Part shown: positions 8,854 to 23,798 of the stretch, piece after piece
How positions within the stretch are numbered: position 1 is the stretch's first letter
How the letters are laid out: every line of letters begins with the position of its first letter
Source of the DNA: Bdellovibrionales bacterium RIFOXYC1_FULL_37_79
GTDB lineage: Bacteria > Bdellovibrionota > Bacteriovoracia > Bacteriovoracales > Bacteriovoracaceae
Length of the DNA: 50,821 nucleotides
Reading direction: 5' to 3'
Assembly: GCA_001770015.1 (NCBI GenBank)
Contig: MEQB01000060.1
Location: 1-50,821 of the forward strand
Program-made: the position numbers and the translations under genes
Notes under the pieces: generated by a model
What the model saw: the letters and a program-made list of their open reading frames with translations, nothing else
Database searches by the model: none
Told to the model about the DNA's origin: nothing

Positions 8854-10146
8854 ATGCAATCACTATATTTACTCAGTCTCATTATTTTATTTTTGTCATC
8901 CAGCTGTACCCAAAATCACCTTCCTACGGGCAACGTCATCTTTATTCATCCCGATGGCACCGGGCTTGGACACTGGAACGCCGCCAGAGCTTATCATGTG
9001 GGGCCAGATAATGATCTGAACTTTGATAAATTATCTCATCTAGCAGCTTATAGATCTCATCAAACTGATATTTTAACCACTTCATCGCATGCCGGTGCCA
9101 CCTCTCATGCTTACGGTATAAAAGTTAAGTACGATTCCTTTGGAATGGACGGCACCACCCCCATTAAATCTTTATCCAATAAACCTTATAGTGTCATGAT
9201 CGAGGCCAAAAACGCCGGGATCAATATCGGTATCATCAATTCCGGCCATCTGGCAGAACCTGGCACGGCAGTCTTTCTAACCACTGTCCCTGATCGCAAA
9301 CTAACCGATCTCATCACTGAACAATTAGTAAATCAAAATGCCAAAGTCATTTTTGGAGGAGGAGAAGAACTATTTTTACCTCCTTTTAAAATTGGTTTTC
9401 ACAAAAAACCGGGTATCCGATCAGATGGAAAAGATATTATTGAATTGGCCATCCAACTCGGCTACAAAGTCATCTACACCCGTGATCAACTTTTAGAACT
9501 ACCTCCAACCACTGCCAAAGTTTTAGGTATTTTTTCCGCCCAGGATTCCTACAATGATAAAACCGAAGAAGATTTAAAAAAAGAAAACCTTACCTGTTAT
9601 CATCCTTCTGCTCCCACTATTGCCCAAATGACCAAGAAGGCATTGGAAATACTGTCATATAACCATAAACAATTTTTTTTAGTCACTGAAGAAGAAGGTA
9701 CTGATAATTTCAGTAATAAAAATAATGCCAGTTGCATGCTGGAGGCCATGAAAAGAGCAGATGACACCGTGGGTGTGGCCCTGAATTTTCTTAAACAAGA
9801 TCCTCGCACCCTTATCTTACTGGCCGCCGATAGTGATGCCGGACACCCAACCACCTACGCCTCCACCACCCTAATGTCCAAAACTGAACCGCTACCCGCC
9901 TCCACCCTCAATGGCGCTCCACTTGACGGAGTGGAAGGTACTCAGACCCTGCCCTTTCTCAGTAAGCCTGATCGTTTTGGTACGACTCTCCCCTTCGGAA
10001 TTGCATGGGTCTCCACCTATGACAATCTGGGGTCCGTTATATCCAAGGCCCATGGTTTTAACGCCAAGTACTTACCAGTCAGTATTCAAAATACCGATAT
10101 TTTCAAACTAATCTTTAAAACTCTTTTTGGCACAAATTTGCCGTAA
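8854..10146 (+). CDS. Alkaline phosphatase family lipoprotein, zinc-site histidines replaced
   Basis: The product aligns by eye along the whole PhoA fold: D34 in HPDGTG (E. coli D51), S78 in TTSSHAGATS (the S102 nucleophile; D101 becomes Ser), NSGHLAEPGTA, FGGGEELF, SAPTIAQMTKKALEIL, E279 (E322), D284 (D327) and D326 (D369). All three zinc-binding histidines are changed: H331 to N288, H370 to S327 and H412 to about N391. The Mg and nucleophile residues remain, so it may use another metal arrangement, have another activity, or be inactive. A short signal ends in FLSSSC, a loose lipobox with Cys18. The gene follows the GT2 gene by 39 bases on the same strand, which hints at a role on a phosphorylated envelope glycan. 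Confidence 0.75.
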   Translation: MQSLYLLSLIILFLSSSCTQNHLPTGNVIFIHPDGTGLGHWNAARAYHVGPDNDLNFDKLSHLAAYRSHQTDILTTSSHAGATSHAYGIKVKYDSFGMDGTTPIKSLSNKPYSVMIEAKNAGINIGIINSGHLAEPGTAVFLTTVPDRKLTDLITEQLVNQNAKVIFGGGEELFLPPFKIGFHKKPGIRSDGKDIIELAIQLGYKVIYTRDQLLELPPTTAKVLGIFSAQDSYNDKTEEDLKKENLTCYHPSAPTIAQMTKKALEILSYNHKQFFLVTEEEGTDNFSNKNNASCMLEAMKRADDTVGVALNFLKQDPRTLILLAADSDAGHPTTYASTTLMSKTEPLPASTLNGAPLDGVEGTQTLPFLSKPDRFGTTLPFGIAWVSTYDNLGSVISKAHGFNAKYLPVSIQNTDIFKLIFKTLFGTNLP

Positions 10147-15832: not shown

Positions 15833-17743
15833 TTAAGCAGCTTGCAAAGACGCTAAGGGGTGACTCAAATGTTGAAAATATAAAGTATTATGCGCATTTA
15901 AAATAATGATTTTCCCCTGTCTGGCACCCTTTTTTAGCAAATCTCTTGCAATGATCTGTTGATAAGCTTTGGTTATCAATTCAATCTCATTTTGAGTTAA
16001 AACATTTTTACTTCCGTGCAAAAGTAAATCATAAGTGGTTGTAAACGGCCCGTCAGCGGTCTTTGCAGGATTTATTCTAACTGCAATGGTGATTTGATTA
16101 AACTTTTTGGGATGGATTTTTTCTTTGGTAAATCCCATTACCTTTTTTCTAATTTCTTTTTCTAAACTCTCTCCATCAGAAATAAGAGAGGCCACTAAAT
16201 TATCAGGGATCCTAGCACCACTTACAAAAGTTGGCGGTAAAAAAACCAATCGATACTTTCCCGGTTTTTGCTGTGCCAGCATCGACACAAATTCTTCCTG
16301 CTTAACGTGAGTAAGTGCTACCCTTGGATAAAAAATGCCTTCGTCTCCTGAAGAAATGACTTCTTCCACTCCCATTTTTCCGCTCCCAAAGATTTCTTTT
16401 TGATTTTCAGAAAATGCCCTATTTAATTCATCTACCATTTTAGAGGCATTCAGGCCTCTTTCTTTAATCAAAGCTAACATCTCCTCCGACAACTCCTCGC
16501 CGGTTTTATCAGAAGCATCAAGTACCAACCGAATAAAATCATTTTGTAAATCTACCAACACACTGGCCCCAATCCGTCGGAAGTCAAAGCTTACCACACC
16601 TACATCTTTGATATTTTCAAAATGCCAATCATCGATTTGTTTTTCTACAAAAACCGGGGGTGCAAAAAAGTCAATCTTTTCAAAATAGCGCATTAATATC
16701 TTGTATTCTTCGTCGGTTAATTGATACTGAAATAAATGAGTCATTCCAGCATTGATATCATCAAATTTTCCTTGTGCTTTTCGGAAAATATCCATAGTTT
16801 CCACCGAGAAAACAAAGCGATCAGTTGACTTATATGGTTTAATAATTCCCTTTTCGACCAAATGAGGATAATTCCCAACGTCGGTTTGTAATTTATCTAT
16901 ATTAGAAACCTCCTTTGTGATGAATTCAACCGTTTCTTCATAACCTTCTCCCGCATCCGAATATCTAACAATCGAAGGCAGATTAAATGATTGTTTTTTA
17001 AATATCTTACGGGCCCTTCTGGCAGACAGATAGGCTTTCCAAGGACTCGTCCCCATACCAGACAAAAACCAAAAAGCCGGATCATCCAAGCCTTCACCAA
17101 AACCTTTAGCAAGTTTATGAAAATCCAGTGCAATCATTTTTGCCTTAAAATCCTTGATGGTTACTTGATATGCATAATTTATTATCTGGTGCATAATCTT
17201 ATCATCGGTAGTATTTACAACCAAGCGCAGAGATTTCCAATCCAAATAGGTATCCACTAATTTTAAATAATTATTCGCTCCCATTTGATTTTCACTCACC
17301 GCTTTTTGAATATTATTCCACAACAAAGTTCTGAAATATTTATTGATCGAAAAAGAAATATTTTTATCGAGAAAAAATTTATCATTCATGGTCTTCATGA
17401 TTGAATTTTCAAATTCCAAATAATATTCGTTCTTACTCATGACTGGATCATCACCATAAATATAACGAGTAACATAAGGTGTATTGTTACTATCTTTAAA
17501 CGTCTCTTTAAATTCCAAATCAACATTTTCTAAAAATTTTAAGACCTTGGGGCCACGGAGAAGCTCTCTTCTTTCCTCCAAAGAGAGTTTTTCTTGGACT
17601 AAAAACCTGACCAGTTCAGGACAAGTGTACGAGGTGCTATCGGAGGCCAAGAGCCGAAAACCAGTCTGTTCAACCTCATTAAACGTACTAATCGAGAAAA
17701 CCAGAAAAATGAAAAGAAATAAATTAATTTTGAAAGTTTTCAT
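15833..17743 (-). CDS. Large exported protein of unknown function (636 aa)
   Basis: The start is a good ATG after AAGGG and opens a signal peptide (MKTFKINLFLFIFLVFSIS), so the protein is exported. The remaining 600 residues are mixed alpha/beta with few cysteines. I see no catalytic motif, repeat or membrane segment after the signal. Segments such as GMGTSPWKAYLSARRARKIF and PTFVSGARIPDNLVASLISD look well structured. It lies between the ABC exporter pair (55 bp upstream end to end) and a CheY-like gene, all on the same strand, but a shared operon is not certain. I do not recognise the family. Confidence 0.75.
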   Translation of the reverse strand: MKTFKINLFLFIFLVFSISTFNEVEQTGFRLLASDSTSYTCPELVRFLVQEKLSLEERRELLRGPKVLKFLENVDLEFKETFKDSNNTPYVTRYIYGDDPVMSKNEYYLEFENSIMKTMNDKFFLDKNISFSINKYFRTLLWNNIQKAVSENQMGANNYLKLVDTYLDWKSLRLVVNTTDDKIMHQIINYAYQVTIKDFKAKMIALDFHKLAKGFGEGLDDPAFWFLSGMGTSPWKAYLSARRARKIFKKQSFNLPSIVRYSDAGEGYEETVEFITKEVSNIDKLQTDVGNYPHLVEKGIIKPYKSTDRFVFSVETMDIFRKAQGKFDDINAGMTHLFQYQLTDEEYKILMRYFEKIDFFAPPVFVEKQIDDWHFENIKDVGVVSFDFRRIGASVLVDLQNDFIRLVLDASDKTGEELSEEMLALIKERGLNASKMVDELNRAFSENQKEIFGSGKMGVEEVISSGDEGIFYPRVALTHVKQEEFVSMLAQQKPGKYRLVFLPPTFVSGARIPDNLVASLISDGESLEKEIRKKVMGFTKEKIHPKKFNQITIAVRINPAKTADGPFTTTYDLLLHGSKNVLTQNEIELITKAYQQIIARDLLKKGARQGKIIILNAHNTLYFQHLSHPLASLQAA

Positions 17744-20338: not shown

Positions 20339-20794
20339 TTAATCTTCTAAAATTTTTGAAATGACGACCTGAAGGTATCTGGCCAGATTGGATTCCAGGG
20401 TTTTCGATAGGCCAAATTCACTTTTTATACACTCGGGTTGAATCCCCATTATCTGAATAGGAGGAAGATGATATCCAGTCTCCATGGCCAGTTTTAAAAC
20501 CTTGATGATATCCCCTTCATGACTGGTAATATTGGTGAGTTCTTTGGTAGAAACCACTAAATCAGGGGTAAACCAAATAAATTCACCAGGAGTAATTTCA
20601 AACTCTCCGGAATCTACAATAATAATTTTTTCGGTACCTTCATTTAGATAACTAAAAATATTCAGGAGGTTCCCGGATAAATCGATAGCGCTAAATCCCT
20701 GATCAAGATTTTTCGCCGTAATTTCCTCAACTACTTTAATGCCAATACTATCATCAAACATGGAGTAATTACCTACTCCCATTATATACTTCAC
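20339..20794 (-). CDS. [NiFe] hydrogenase maturation protease
   Basis: The protein belongs to the HyaD/HybD endopeptidase family (M52), which clips the C-terminus of the large subunit after nickel is inserted. The N-terminal family motif is IMGVGNYSMFDDSIG. D15 takes the place of the usual nickel-sensing Glu, IIIVDSGEF holds the second metal Asp and SHEGD the His. I start at the GTG at 20794, because GGAG lies five bases upstream and the motif begins at residue 4. Longer readings run through the terminator hairpin before it. It is the last gene of the hydrogenase operon and should mature the alpha subunit made just upstream. Confidence 0.85.
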   Translation of the reverse strand: MKYIMGVGNYSMFDDSIGIKVVEEITAKNLDQGFSAIDLSGNLLNIFSYLNEGTEKIIIVDSGEFEITPGEFIWFTPDLVVSTKELTNITSHEGDIIKVLKLAMETGYHLPPIQIMGIQPECIKSEFGLSKTLESNLARYLQVVISKILED

Positions 20795-20807
20795 CAACGC
20801 TCCAAAT

Positions 20808-20849
20808 AAAAAAAGGTGCGTGATACTCATCATAAGTATTCACGCACCT
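20808..20849 (-). terminator. Strong intrinsic terminator/attenuator inside the hydrogenase operon
   Basis: In the minus direction AGGTGCGTGAATACT is followed by a 7-nt loop and AGTATCACGCACCT (14 pairs, one bulged A), then seven T (20808-20814). It lies between the large-subunit stop (20864) and the protease start (20794), so most transcripts should end before the protease gene. Confidence 0.85.
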
Positions 20850-20863
20850 GCAGTCACAATAGA

Positions 20864-22183
20864 TTATTTAACAAATTTAACTTTTAAATAATGAGTTGAA
20901 CAGGAAATGCAAGGATCGTATGCTCTCACCAACATGGAAAGGGCCAATTCCATTTCTTGTTCGTTTTTATCTTGTTGAATCAAGATAGGCACCAGCGCTT
21001 CAAAATCCTTTTGAATATTGGCATGGTTTTGACCAGTGGGAATAATGCAATTTCCAGCGGTGCAAAAGCCTTCTTTATCAAAAGAATATTCATGGAACAA
21101 AATGCCTCTTGGAACTTCAACAGCTGAAGCACCTGTACCAAAACGTTTAGGTGGTACCAAAGGCTCATCTTTAATGCCATCTACCAATAATTCTTCAATC
21201 AGATCCAGCGTTTCATAAACACTGTGAGCACACTCAATGAGTTGAGCAGCTGAATTTAAAAATGGGTTACCACAAACCGGCTTCATTCCAAGCGCCTGGG
21301 CAATTTTTTTGGCCTGGGGATACAACTGATCATAGTTGTTATTGAAACGGGCCAAAGCTCCAGCAGCATAGCAATCAAGTTTGTTTTTACAATACTTGGC
21401 CGTTGATCTTGGATTAACGTATTCATTAGTAATTTTTCGATAATCATGAACATCATATTTTTGTTTGGTTCCGTCTGGCATAATGGTTTGCACGGTTGGG
21501 CCTAAATACATGCCGTACTCCATATCATTGGAAACCGCCATATATTCAGTTGGTCTGTTAAAATCAGGAATTTTTCCTGCGAGTGACAACACTGTTTCTA
21601 CCAGCGCATTGATCCCATCCACATTGGCAATAATTTTTTCTTTTAAAGCAACGAGTTCATTTTTGGTTGGAATTTTAGAAAAACCACCTGGCACACAAGT
21701 CGTTGGATGAGTGGTTCTACCTGCCAGCAATGATCCCCATTCATGACCCAGTCTCTTAAGTCTTAAAACCAGTTTGACTACTTCACCATGAGTGGCGACC
21801 AACGGAAAAACTGAAGGTGCACCCAAAAGATCTGGTGCCACTAACACGCCAATATGAAGCACATGGGAATCAAAATTTTCAGCATGCTTTAAAATTCTTC
21901 TAAGTTTATTGGTTTGCGGAGTGACTTGAATACCAAGTGCATCCTCGATAGCTTTGACAGCTGCCAAAGTATGCCCAACGGAACAAATTCCACAAATACG
22001 GCTGGTAATTCTTTGGACTTCTGAATAATGACGTTCTCTTACCATTGCCTCAAAAAATCTTGGGGCTTCCGGCACTTGCCATTCACACTTTTCAATATTG
22101 CCGTTTTTTATATTAACAACAATATTGCCATGGCCCTCAACTCGGGTCAAATGGTGGACATTAACATTGATATCTTTTTTCAT
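20864..22183 (-). CDS. hydA: Group 3b [NiFe] hydrogenase alpha (large, catalytic) subunit
   Basis: The 439-residue subunit carries the Ni-Fe active site. The L1 motif RICGICSVGH (C64, C67, H71) and the L2 motif DPCISCSTH (C425, C428) supply the four cysteine ligands. The eight residues after H431 (YLKVKFVK) are the likely peptide removed by the downstream protease. The N-terminal HHLTRVEGHGNI is typical. It follows the delta subunit by two bases. With the beta, gamma and delta genes it forms a soluble bidirectional NAD(P)-linked hydrogenase (Hyd/Shy/Hyh type) that oxidises H2 or evolves it from NAD(P)H; related archaeal enzymes also reduce sulfur. Confidence 0.93.
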   Translation of the reverse strand: MKKDINVNVHHLTRVEGHGNIVVNIKNGNIEKCEWQVPEAPRFFEAMVRERHYSEVQRITSRICGICSVGHTLAAVKAIEDALGIQVTPQTNKLRRILKHAENFDSHVLHIGVLVAPDLLGAPSVFPLVATHGEVVKLVLRLKRLGHEWGSLLAGRTTHPTTCVPGGFSKIPTKNELVALKEKIIANVDGINALVETVLSLAGKIPDFNRPTEYMAVSNDMEYGMYLGPTVQTIMPDGTKQKYDVHDYRKITNEYVNPRSTAKYCKNKLDCYAAGALARFNNNYDQLYPQAKKIAQALGMKPVCGNPFLNSAAQLIECAHSVYETLDLIEELLVDGIKDEPLVPPKRFGTGASAVEVPRGILFHEYSFDKEGFCTAGNCIIPTGQNHANIQKDFEALVPILIQQDKNEQEMELALSMLVRAYDPCISCSTHYLKVKFVK

Positions 22184-22185
22184 GG

Positions 22186-22947
22186 TTATACTCCCAATTT
22201 TTTAGCATCACTTCTATGGTTTGCTGTAAACATTTTGGATTTTCTTTCTGCCCATCTTTCAGGAAGCTTGCCTTTTTCCTTTAACACTTTTTTCAGTGCC
22301 ACTTCATTCGGTGAATCGACAAATCCCCGGCAGGCTTCGCAAGGAATACCATCCGCAGGACATGGGGCTCCGCAACCTGATCTGGCAACTTGTCCCATGC
22401 AATGATCACCAACGTCGTAGCGACAAATCGTCTCTCGTCTCTTACATTCAACACAAACTGGATAATTAGGTATCACCGGTGTTTTTCCATGCAACAGATG
22501 GCTTACGATATCAAGCAATTCATATTTATCCATCGGACATCCATGCACATTATAATCCACTTTAATGGCCGCAGATACTGGCAACGCTATCTGACTATCC
22601 AGATGTGGCATATTGGCATCTTTGCCATAAACATTTTGCTTATAATCATTGGTATCGTTTTTCATAGCGTTGATACCACCAGAAGTGGCGCATGACCCAT
22701 AAGCGATAACAATACTTGCTCTTTGACGAATTTTTTCAAGTCTGGCACGATCCTCTTCTCTTGAAAAACTACCTTCAACAAAAGCTATGTCTATATGATC
22801 TGCTTTCTCTGTCATGGCTTCTCGAAATTCAACGATCTCAATATGATTTAACAGTTCCAAAAAAGCGCTGTCACCATAGTTGGTTAATTCTATTTGACAG
22901 CCTTCACAGCATGTAAAATCAAAAAATGCTACTTTTGGCTTGCTCAT
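22186..22947 (-). CDS. hydD: Group 3b [NiFe] hydrogenase delta (small) subunit
   Basis: The 253-residue small subunit carries three Fe-S clusters. FDFTCCEGCQIEL (C14, C17) and AYGSCATSGG plus VHGCPMDK ligate the proximal cluster, and the C-terminal CVECKRRETIC, C-M-G and SGCGAPCP/CEAC cysteines the medial and distal ones. The start is the ATG at 22947, whose A is the last base of the gamma-subunit stop (TAATG), with GAGGAGG just before it. A longer reading from 23007 lies inside the gamma gene and is rejected. It passes electrons from the Ni-Fe site to the gamma/beta diaphorase part. Confidence 0.92.
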   Translation of the reverse strand: MSKPKVAFFDFTCCEGCQIELTNYGDSAFLELLNHIEIVEFREAMTEKADHIDIAFVEGSFSREEDRARLEKIRQRASIVIAYGSCATSGGINAMKNDTNDYKQNVYGKDANMPHLDSQIALPVSAAIKVDYNVHGCPMDKYELLDIVSHLLHGKTPVIPNYPVCVECKRRETICRYDVGDHCMGQVARSGCGAPCPADGIPCEACRGFVDSPNEVALKKVLKEKGKLPERWAERKSKMFTANHRSDAKKLGV

Positions 22948-23798
22948 TATAACGCCTCCTCTAAATTTTGAATGTCTGAGTAACGAAAAACTGGTCCATC
23001 TACGCAAACATAATTATCATTGATCTGACAATGTCCACATTTTCCCACACCGCACTTCATTCTTCTTTCCAAATCAACATAAACATTGTTTCGACTGATT
23101 CCGATTTTATCACATTCAGCAATCACAAAACGGAACATAATCGGAGGACCACAGATAATAACCCTGGTATCAGGCGTAATCGTCGTTTTCTTAAAGAGTT
23201 CGGTAATAACTCCCACATTCCCGGTCCACTTGCCATCGGTTTTGTCAACGATTTCGTGGTAATCAACATCCTTGGCCGCTTTCCATTTAGCTATGTCTTC
23301 ATGAAACATTTGCTGACTTGGATCACGAGCGCCATAAAATAGAGTGAAGTTTTTAAATTCATTTCTTCTATCAGTGATATATTGAATCATGGACCTGGTT
23401 GGACAAAGTCCAATTCCTCCGGCCACCACTAATATATTTTGATTTTGCAACTCGTTTAGGGGGAATCCAGATCCCAAAGGACCTCTTACATATAAGGAGT
23501 CACCTTCACTAAGTTTGTTTAAGGCGGTGGAAACCCTACCAACCGTTCTTATAACAATATCAAAAGTATTTTCTCGAGTTGGAGAACTGGCATACCCCAG
23601 GGGGATTTCGCCAAAACCAAACAGAGATACTTCTAAAATCTGACCTGGATTGAATTTTACTTTGGAATTATCAGCATGTCTGAGAGTAAAATGTCTTTCC
23701 GTTTTGGTAACTTGTTTTACATGCGTAATTTTGCATTCTCTAGGAAGAAAAATATTTCCTTCAGGAGCAACTTTTGAATAATCTATTGTCAAGGCCAC
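22947..23798 (-). CDS. hydG: Group 3b hydrogenase gamma subunit (FAD/NAD(P)-binding)
   Basis: A 283-residue ferredoxin-reductase-fold protein. The FAD-binding half contains FGEIPLGYASSPT. The NAD(P)-binding half starts at VAGGIGLCPTRSMI and includes IICGPPIMFRFV. The C-terminal KCGVGKCGHC and YVC cysteines bind a 2Fe-2S cluster, as in PyrK-type and HydG subunits. It starts with GTG, preceded by GGAGG inside the end of the beta gene. It couples hydride transfer to NAD(P) with the Fe-S chain. Confidence 0.92.
   Translation of the reverse strand: MALTIDYSKVAPEGNIFLPRECKITHVKQVTKTERHFTLRHADNSKVKFNPGQILEVSLFGFGEIPLGYASSPTRENTFDIVIRTVGRVSTALNKLSEGDSLYVRGPLGSGFPLNELQNQNILVVAGGIGLCPTRSMIQYITDRRNEFKNFTLFYGARDPSQQMFHEDIAKWKAAKDVDYHEIVDKTDGKWTGNVGVITELFKKTTITPDTRVIICGPPIMFRFVIAECDKIGISRNNVYVDLERRMKCGVGKCGHCQINDNYVCVDGPVFRYSDIQNLEEAL

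Follow-up and report, generated by a model that had tools for sequence, protein, structure and literature searches.

How might an alkaline phosphatase work once every histidine that binds zinc in the E. coli enzyme is gone? The question is raised by one open reading frame in the 50,821-nucleotide stretch of DNA analysed here (the window), from contig MEQB01000060.1 of Bdellovibrionales bacterium RIFOXYC1_FULL_37_79. An earlier note, made by eye, had described its product as a PhoA homologue that keeps the fold and the nucleophile while losing the zinc-binding histidine set. That observation is confirmed, and it proves stronger than first stated. PhoA is the textbook two-zinc enzyme; a clade built in this way would show a bimetal centre changing its metal, and decades of work on PhoA metal-site mutants gain in it a natural point of comparison.

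An alkaline phosphatase fold with its zinc histidines replaced

The reading frame (8854-10146, plus strand) is intact, begins with ATG and encodes a protein of 430 residues, P0001; on the opposite strand of the same interval, stops interrupt the frame. P0001 matches the alkaline phosphatase family PF00245 (6e-37, 128 bits; gathering cut-off 24.4). Its score against the NCBIfam PhoA equivalog NF007810 is 67.8 bits, below the curated cut-off of 540, and it has no Pfam match to Sulfatase PF00884. The N-terminus carries a hydrophobic export signal, in which the AlphaFold model makes residues 2-14 helical, followed by Cys18. This is the sole PF00245 gene of the 4.36-Mb, 96% complete host genome, in which a profile search detected neither PhoX nor PhoD; one strong PF01663 gene is present. 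With no other PF00245 protein, PhoX or PhoD beside it, P0001 could stand alone.

An AlphaFold2 model of P0001 was built on 38 members of the clade described below (mean pLDDT 94.4, pTM 0.92), and an earlier one built on 3 sequences (pLDDT 48) was set aside. The predicted fold is that of alkaline phosphatase across the whole chain, with model residues 22-427 lying on PhoA 39-449. Alkaline phosphatases account for every one of the 50 structural matches listed (Z 42-46, rmsd 2.0-4.0). The E. coli and Vibrio enzymes match at Z 44-46 with an rmsd of about 2.4 over ~350 residues, and identity to E. coli PhoA is 26% across 356 aligned residues. Searching PDB sequences with the clade profile returned none that belongs to the clade; the best, the Vibrio enzyme (134 bits), has His at both the H331 and H370 positions.

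Residue pairs were taken from a MAFFT alignment, a profile-profile alignment by hhalign and the structural alignment, whose end-points place D34/D51 and D390/H412 in gap-free register; all three agree. As the earlier note had proposed, PhoA D51, S102, E322, D327 and D369 are retained as D34, S78, E279, D284 and D326, H331 has become N288, H370 has become S327 and D101 has become S77. Its assignment of H412 to about N391 has to be moved by one residue, to D390. Otherwise its account of the zinc site was right, and it had passed over four further positions: D153, T155 and K328, replaced by E135, G137 and N285 in a rebuilt Mg-site region, and R166, retained as R148. Thus, where PhoA ligates M1 with D327, H331 and H412, P0001 has D284, N288 and D390; at M2, D51, D369 and H370 correspond to D34, D326 and S327; and at the Mg site M3, D51, T155 and E322 correspond to D34, G137 and E279. 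Residue 138, a Thr or Ser one position beyond G137, could stand in for T155.

All of these positions lie on the plus strand. The HPDG motif (residues 32-35, 8947-8958) contains D34, the M2/M3 ligand. The segment S77-H85 (9082-9108) contains the nucleophile and ends at the equivalent of PhoA W109. EPGT (residues 135-138, 9256-9267) takes the place of the PhoA Mg-site segment D153-A-T155-P, and the phosphate-binding R148 lies at 9295-9297. EEEGTDNFSN (residues 279-288, 9688-9717) spans E279, D284, N285 and N288, and is followed by D326-S327 (9829-9834) and D390 (10021-10023).

A single-origin clade with invariant replacements

Are these substitutions peculiar to one genome? Single-sequence scans of genome contigs and viral contigs found no close relative, nor did the one genome of the host genus examined contain a relative. 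Within the host's own family, relatives are at most about 33% identical, and those aligned are canonical. A phylum-wide search recovered two relatives, 44-45% identical to P0001 and with identical substitutions. The alignment of these three sequences was then searched against one-genome-per-species DNA, giving 326 loci, the best 80 of them being read. The resulting set comprises 84 sequences including P0001, with a mean pairwise identity of 53% and a minimum of 38%. Its hosts are Nostocales and other Cyanobacteria, Ignavibacteria/Melioribacter, Zixibacteria, Latescibacterota, KSB1, Verrucomicrobia, Gemmatimonadota, Planctomycetes (Phycisphaerae), Neomarinimicrobiota, Meiothermus and more. All 38 aligned members match PF00245.

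Of 13 positions equivalent to PhoA catalytic residues, 12 are invariant among the 84 members (hypergeometric p = 4e-12). N at 288, S at 327, D at 390, E-P-G at 135-137 and the S78 and R148 that correspond to S102 and R166 occur in 84/84, and the substitutions never revert. The sole varying position is the D101 equivalent, T or S in 82 members. Two other PF00245 proteins (L111 and L112) depart from the canonical D101-S102 motif with SS and ES, so that D101 appears less strict than the histidines. Two search patterns fall within the HPD and EEEGTD segments and so partly select for invariance at those sites; with the pattern stretches excluded, 9 of 10 positions never vary, compared with 36 of 390 overall (p = 2e-9). 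Canonical alkaline phosphatases retain H331 and H370 in 26/26 sequences and H412 in all 25 ungapped ones (one row is gapped), and never replace T155. Since the substitutions are invariant in 84 sequences while 26 canonical enzymes keep their histidines, chance is excluded.

The same counts bear on two readings in which the gene product is no working enzyme. That the host carries a degenerate pseudogene or a sequencing artefact, for which nothing speaks except the unusual residues, is refuted by the intact frame and by 83 relatives from other genomes with identical substitutions. A pseudoenzyme, which would bind phosphate or another ligand with a dead active site, is unlikely. Every zinc histidine and D101 are lost, and such a pattern marks dead enzymes in other families; but the nucleophile, the arginine and the acidic ligands, including the equivalents of R166 and E322, are invariant over many phyla, one fixed residue substitutes for each loss, and conservation is far higher at active-site positions than elsewhere in the protein, the reverse of the relaxed catalytic site that a pseudoenzyme should have. 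Read from these alignments, the loss of the histidines is not decay, and the earlier suggestion of a pseudo-enzyme is disfavoured. Of 30 carrier genomes, 20 contain no PF00245 gene besides the P0001-type one.

A maximum-likelihood tree of 66 sequences places all 41 variant rows on one side of one branch (length 1.55, support 100/100). The His-less variant is monophyletic and arose once. The nearest canonical row is the Paenibacillus 'EEE' alkaline phosphatase WP_110045669.1 (support 100/96). This protein and its Priestia counterpart WP_047932879.1 share with the clade the VEEE(A/G)(T/I)D segment and a compact length of ~420 residues; unlike the clade, they possess all three zinc histidines, D101, S102, D153 and T155. 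We found no Pfam or NCBIfam model or PDB entry that sets the clade apart, and no description of it in a literature search that lay mostly outside subscription journals. Within the alkaline phosphatase family it is a widespread and apparently undescribed lineage.

The nature of the metal centre

What could such a site do? We consider it somewhat better than an even bet that P0001 is an active serine-nucleophile phosphohydrolase with all-oxygen sites of the Mg/Mn/Ca type; its activity, its phosphomonoester chemistry and its metal we infer from the residues described above. With the PhoA fold, the S78 nucleophile and R148 kept, the exported protein would hydrolyse its substrate through a PhoA-like phospho-serine intermediate. 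M1 would be built from D284, N288 and D390, and M2 from D34, D326, S327 and S78. Both would prefer Mg2+, Mn2+ or Ca2+ to Zn2+, because both have oxygen ligands only. In coordination chemistry, oxygen-only sites of Asp, Asn and Ser favour Mg, Ca or Mn over Zn, and in sulfatases, which belong to the same superfamily, Asp/Asn serve with Ca2+.

Why prefer this account? It is the simplest reading, since the nucleophile, the arginine and the carboxylates are kept and each histidine has given way to a single invariable oxygen ligand (N, S or D) and not to a scatter of residues. A metal-switched phosphatase had been among the possibilities first offered for this protein, and it fits best of them because the oxygen ligands, the nucleophile and the R166 and E322 equivalents are present in 84/84, its catalysis and its metal being the putative parts. 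Against it, Zn2+ can also bind oxygen ligands, and crystal structures of PhoA mutants lacking a single histidine show an intact fold (H412N, 1ali; H412Q, 1hqa; H331Q, 1hjk); the failed Ca2+ lead and the Pho-box result, both described below, count against it too. For the clade as a whole, we give an even chance to a phylum-spanning class of PhoA fold in which a Zn2-His centre became all-oxygen in a single event, allowing Zn-independent phosphate release.

The all-oxygen reading is most exposed at three histidines that might form an unforeseen new site: H32 (8947-8949), H69 (9058-9060) and H85 (9106-9108). H32 and H85 are present in 84/84 members and H69 in 83/84; none is conserved in canonical alkaline phosphatases, where these positions are respectively aliphatic, varied and Trp or another aromatic. 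An ordinary zinc phosphatase, holding Zn at M1 and M2 through Asp, Asn and Ser or through these histidines, gains from this conservation and from the place of H32 in the model, on the same strand as D34 and two residues ahead of it. We nevertheless judge it quite unlikely: H32 and H85 align to PhoA I49 and W109, which are not ligands, and we know of no zinc site of Asp, Asn and Ser alone in this family.

Could the chemistry have shifted along with the metal? An active enzyme with this fold, whether hydrolase or transferase, might act on phosphodiesters or sulfate esters, or transfer phosphoryl groups to an acceptor, with its metal sites changed too and possibly a single metal, as in sulfatases. 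All three metal sites are indeed altered jointly, including D101, D153, T155 and K328, and the serine in place of H370 resembles the Asn found there in sulfatases. Metalloenzyme PF01676 is matched by 11/38 members, and PF00884 weakly by 3/38 (best 1.7e-4). Arylsulfatases (PF00884) belong to the alkaline phosphatase superfamily and combine an all-oxygen Asp/Asn Ca site with a formylglycine nucleophile, whereas just these three clade members show even a weak match to their profile and S78 lies outside any formylglycine motif; the sulfatase-like alternative raised initially is therefore supported at the superfamily level only. The 38/38 matches to PF00245, the invariant R166 and E322 equivalents typical of the phosphomonoesterase PhoA, and a search for acceptor-pathway genes co-occurring with the clade, which found none, also make shifted chemistry unlikely.

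An all-oxygen PhoA-like enzyme would have functional parallels elsewhere. The Ca/Fe-dependent PhoX and PhoD, whose folds are unrelated to that of PhoA, possibly share its role in Zn-free phosphate release. PhoA-aty, from cyanobacteria and dinoflagellates, resembles it by description, as an alkaline phosphatase whose reported metals are Ca/Mn/Mg instead of Zn: Ca2+ restored activity and Zn2+ did not, and no active-site or structural model is said to apply (PMC6723241). An Arthrospira alkaline phosphatase is described as Ca-dependent and Zn-inhibited (PMC8533315, citing Asencio 2012). The two Arthrospira-like genomes examined (phycocyanin alpha 99% identical) contain PhoX and PhoD and no PF00245 gene; PhoX or PhoD would account for that enzyme, and this lead to Ca2+ was dropped.

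The distinction matters for environmental surveys. Marine phosphorus-gene surveys take PF00245 as PhoA (PMC8812569) and describe the PhoA family as zinc-using (PMC5454538). If the all-oxygen reading is true, clade members would be counted in PF00245-based surveys as Zn-dependent 'PhoA', and Zn/P co-limitation would be read differently from metagenomes.

Genomic context, regulation and distribution

Does the neighbourhood point to a substrate? Upstream of P0001 lie a radical-SAM gene and then a GT2 glycosyltransferase gene, 40 bp away, so that the gene does directly follow a glycosyltransferase, as had been noted. Downstream, at 83 bp, is a C92-like (YiiX) gene, and upstream on the other strand are a polysaccharide pyruvyl transferase gene and a flippase-like gene. 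Across about 78 loci of the clade we found no recurring neighbour gene, so the link to glycans does not extend to the family, and the proposal of phosphoglycan transfer, which rested on the neighbourhood, falls away. At three Ignavibacteria-type loci (L032, L033, L035), a gene judged from its sequence to be purine-permease-like lies 70-121 bp upstream on the same strand. It may hint at nucleotides as substrate there, although three loci are too few to matter.

Regulation by phosphate was sought through the Pho-box. Upstream of the cyanobacterial clade genes it is not significantly enriched (p = 0.07), and outside the Cyanobacteria the signal is confounded by AT-rich intergenic DNA. Nostoc all2843, a possible member of the clade, is strongly induced under P starvation (PMC7564538).

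How did the gene reach its present host? P0001 pairs in the tree with a verrucomicrobial sequence and not with its two own-phylum relatives, and only 3 of 291 genomes in the phylum carry the gene; together, this placement and this rarity suggest acquisition by horizontal transfer. Among Cyanobacteria, 19 of 194 carry a clade member. Three cyanobacterial proteins (L125, L130, L143) are about 1100-1155 residues long and contain two tandem alkaline phosphatase domains. In the tandem proteins read, both domains are His-less and are followed by C-terminal RTX-type GGxGxDx repeats; in the tree, each domain falls into a group of its own, and the two groups are sisters. From this architecture, the three are presumably secreted by a type I system.

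Elsewhere in the window, a 636-residue exported-looking protein with no Pfam match (15833-17743) lies beside two ABC exporter genes, and positions 20339-23007 hold a [NiFe]-hydrogenase cluster encoding a maturation protease, a large subunit and a small (q6-type) subunit.
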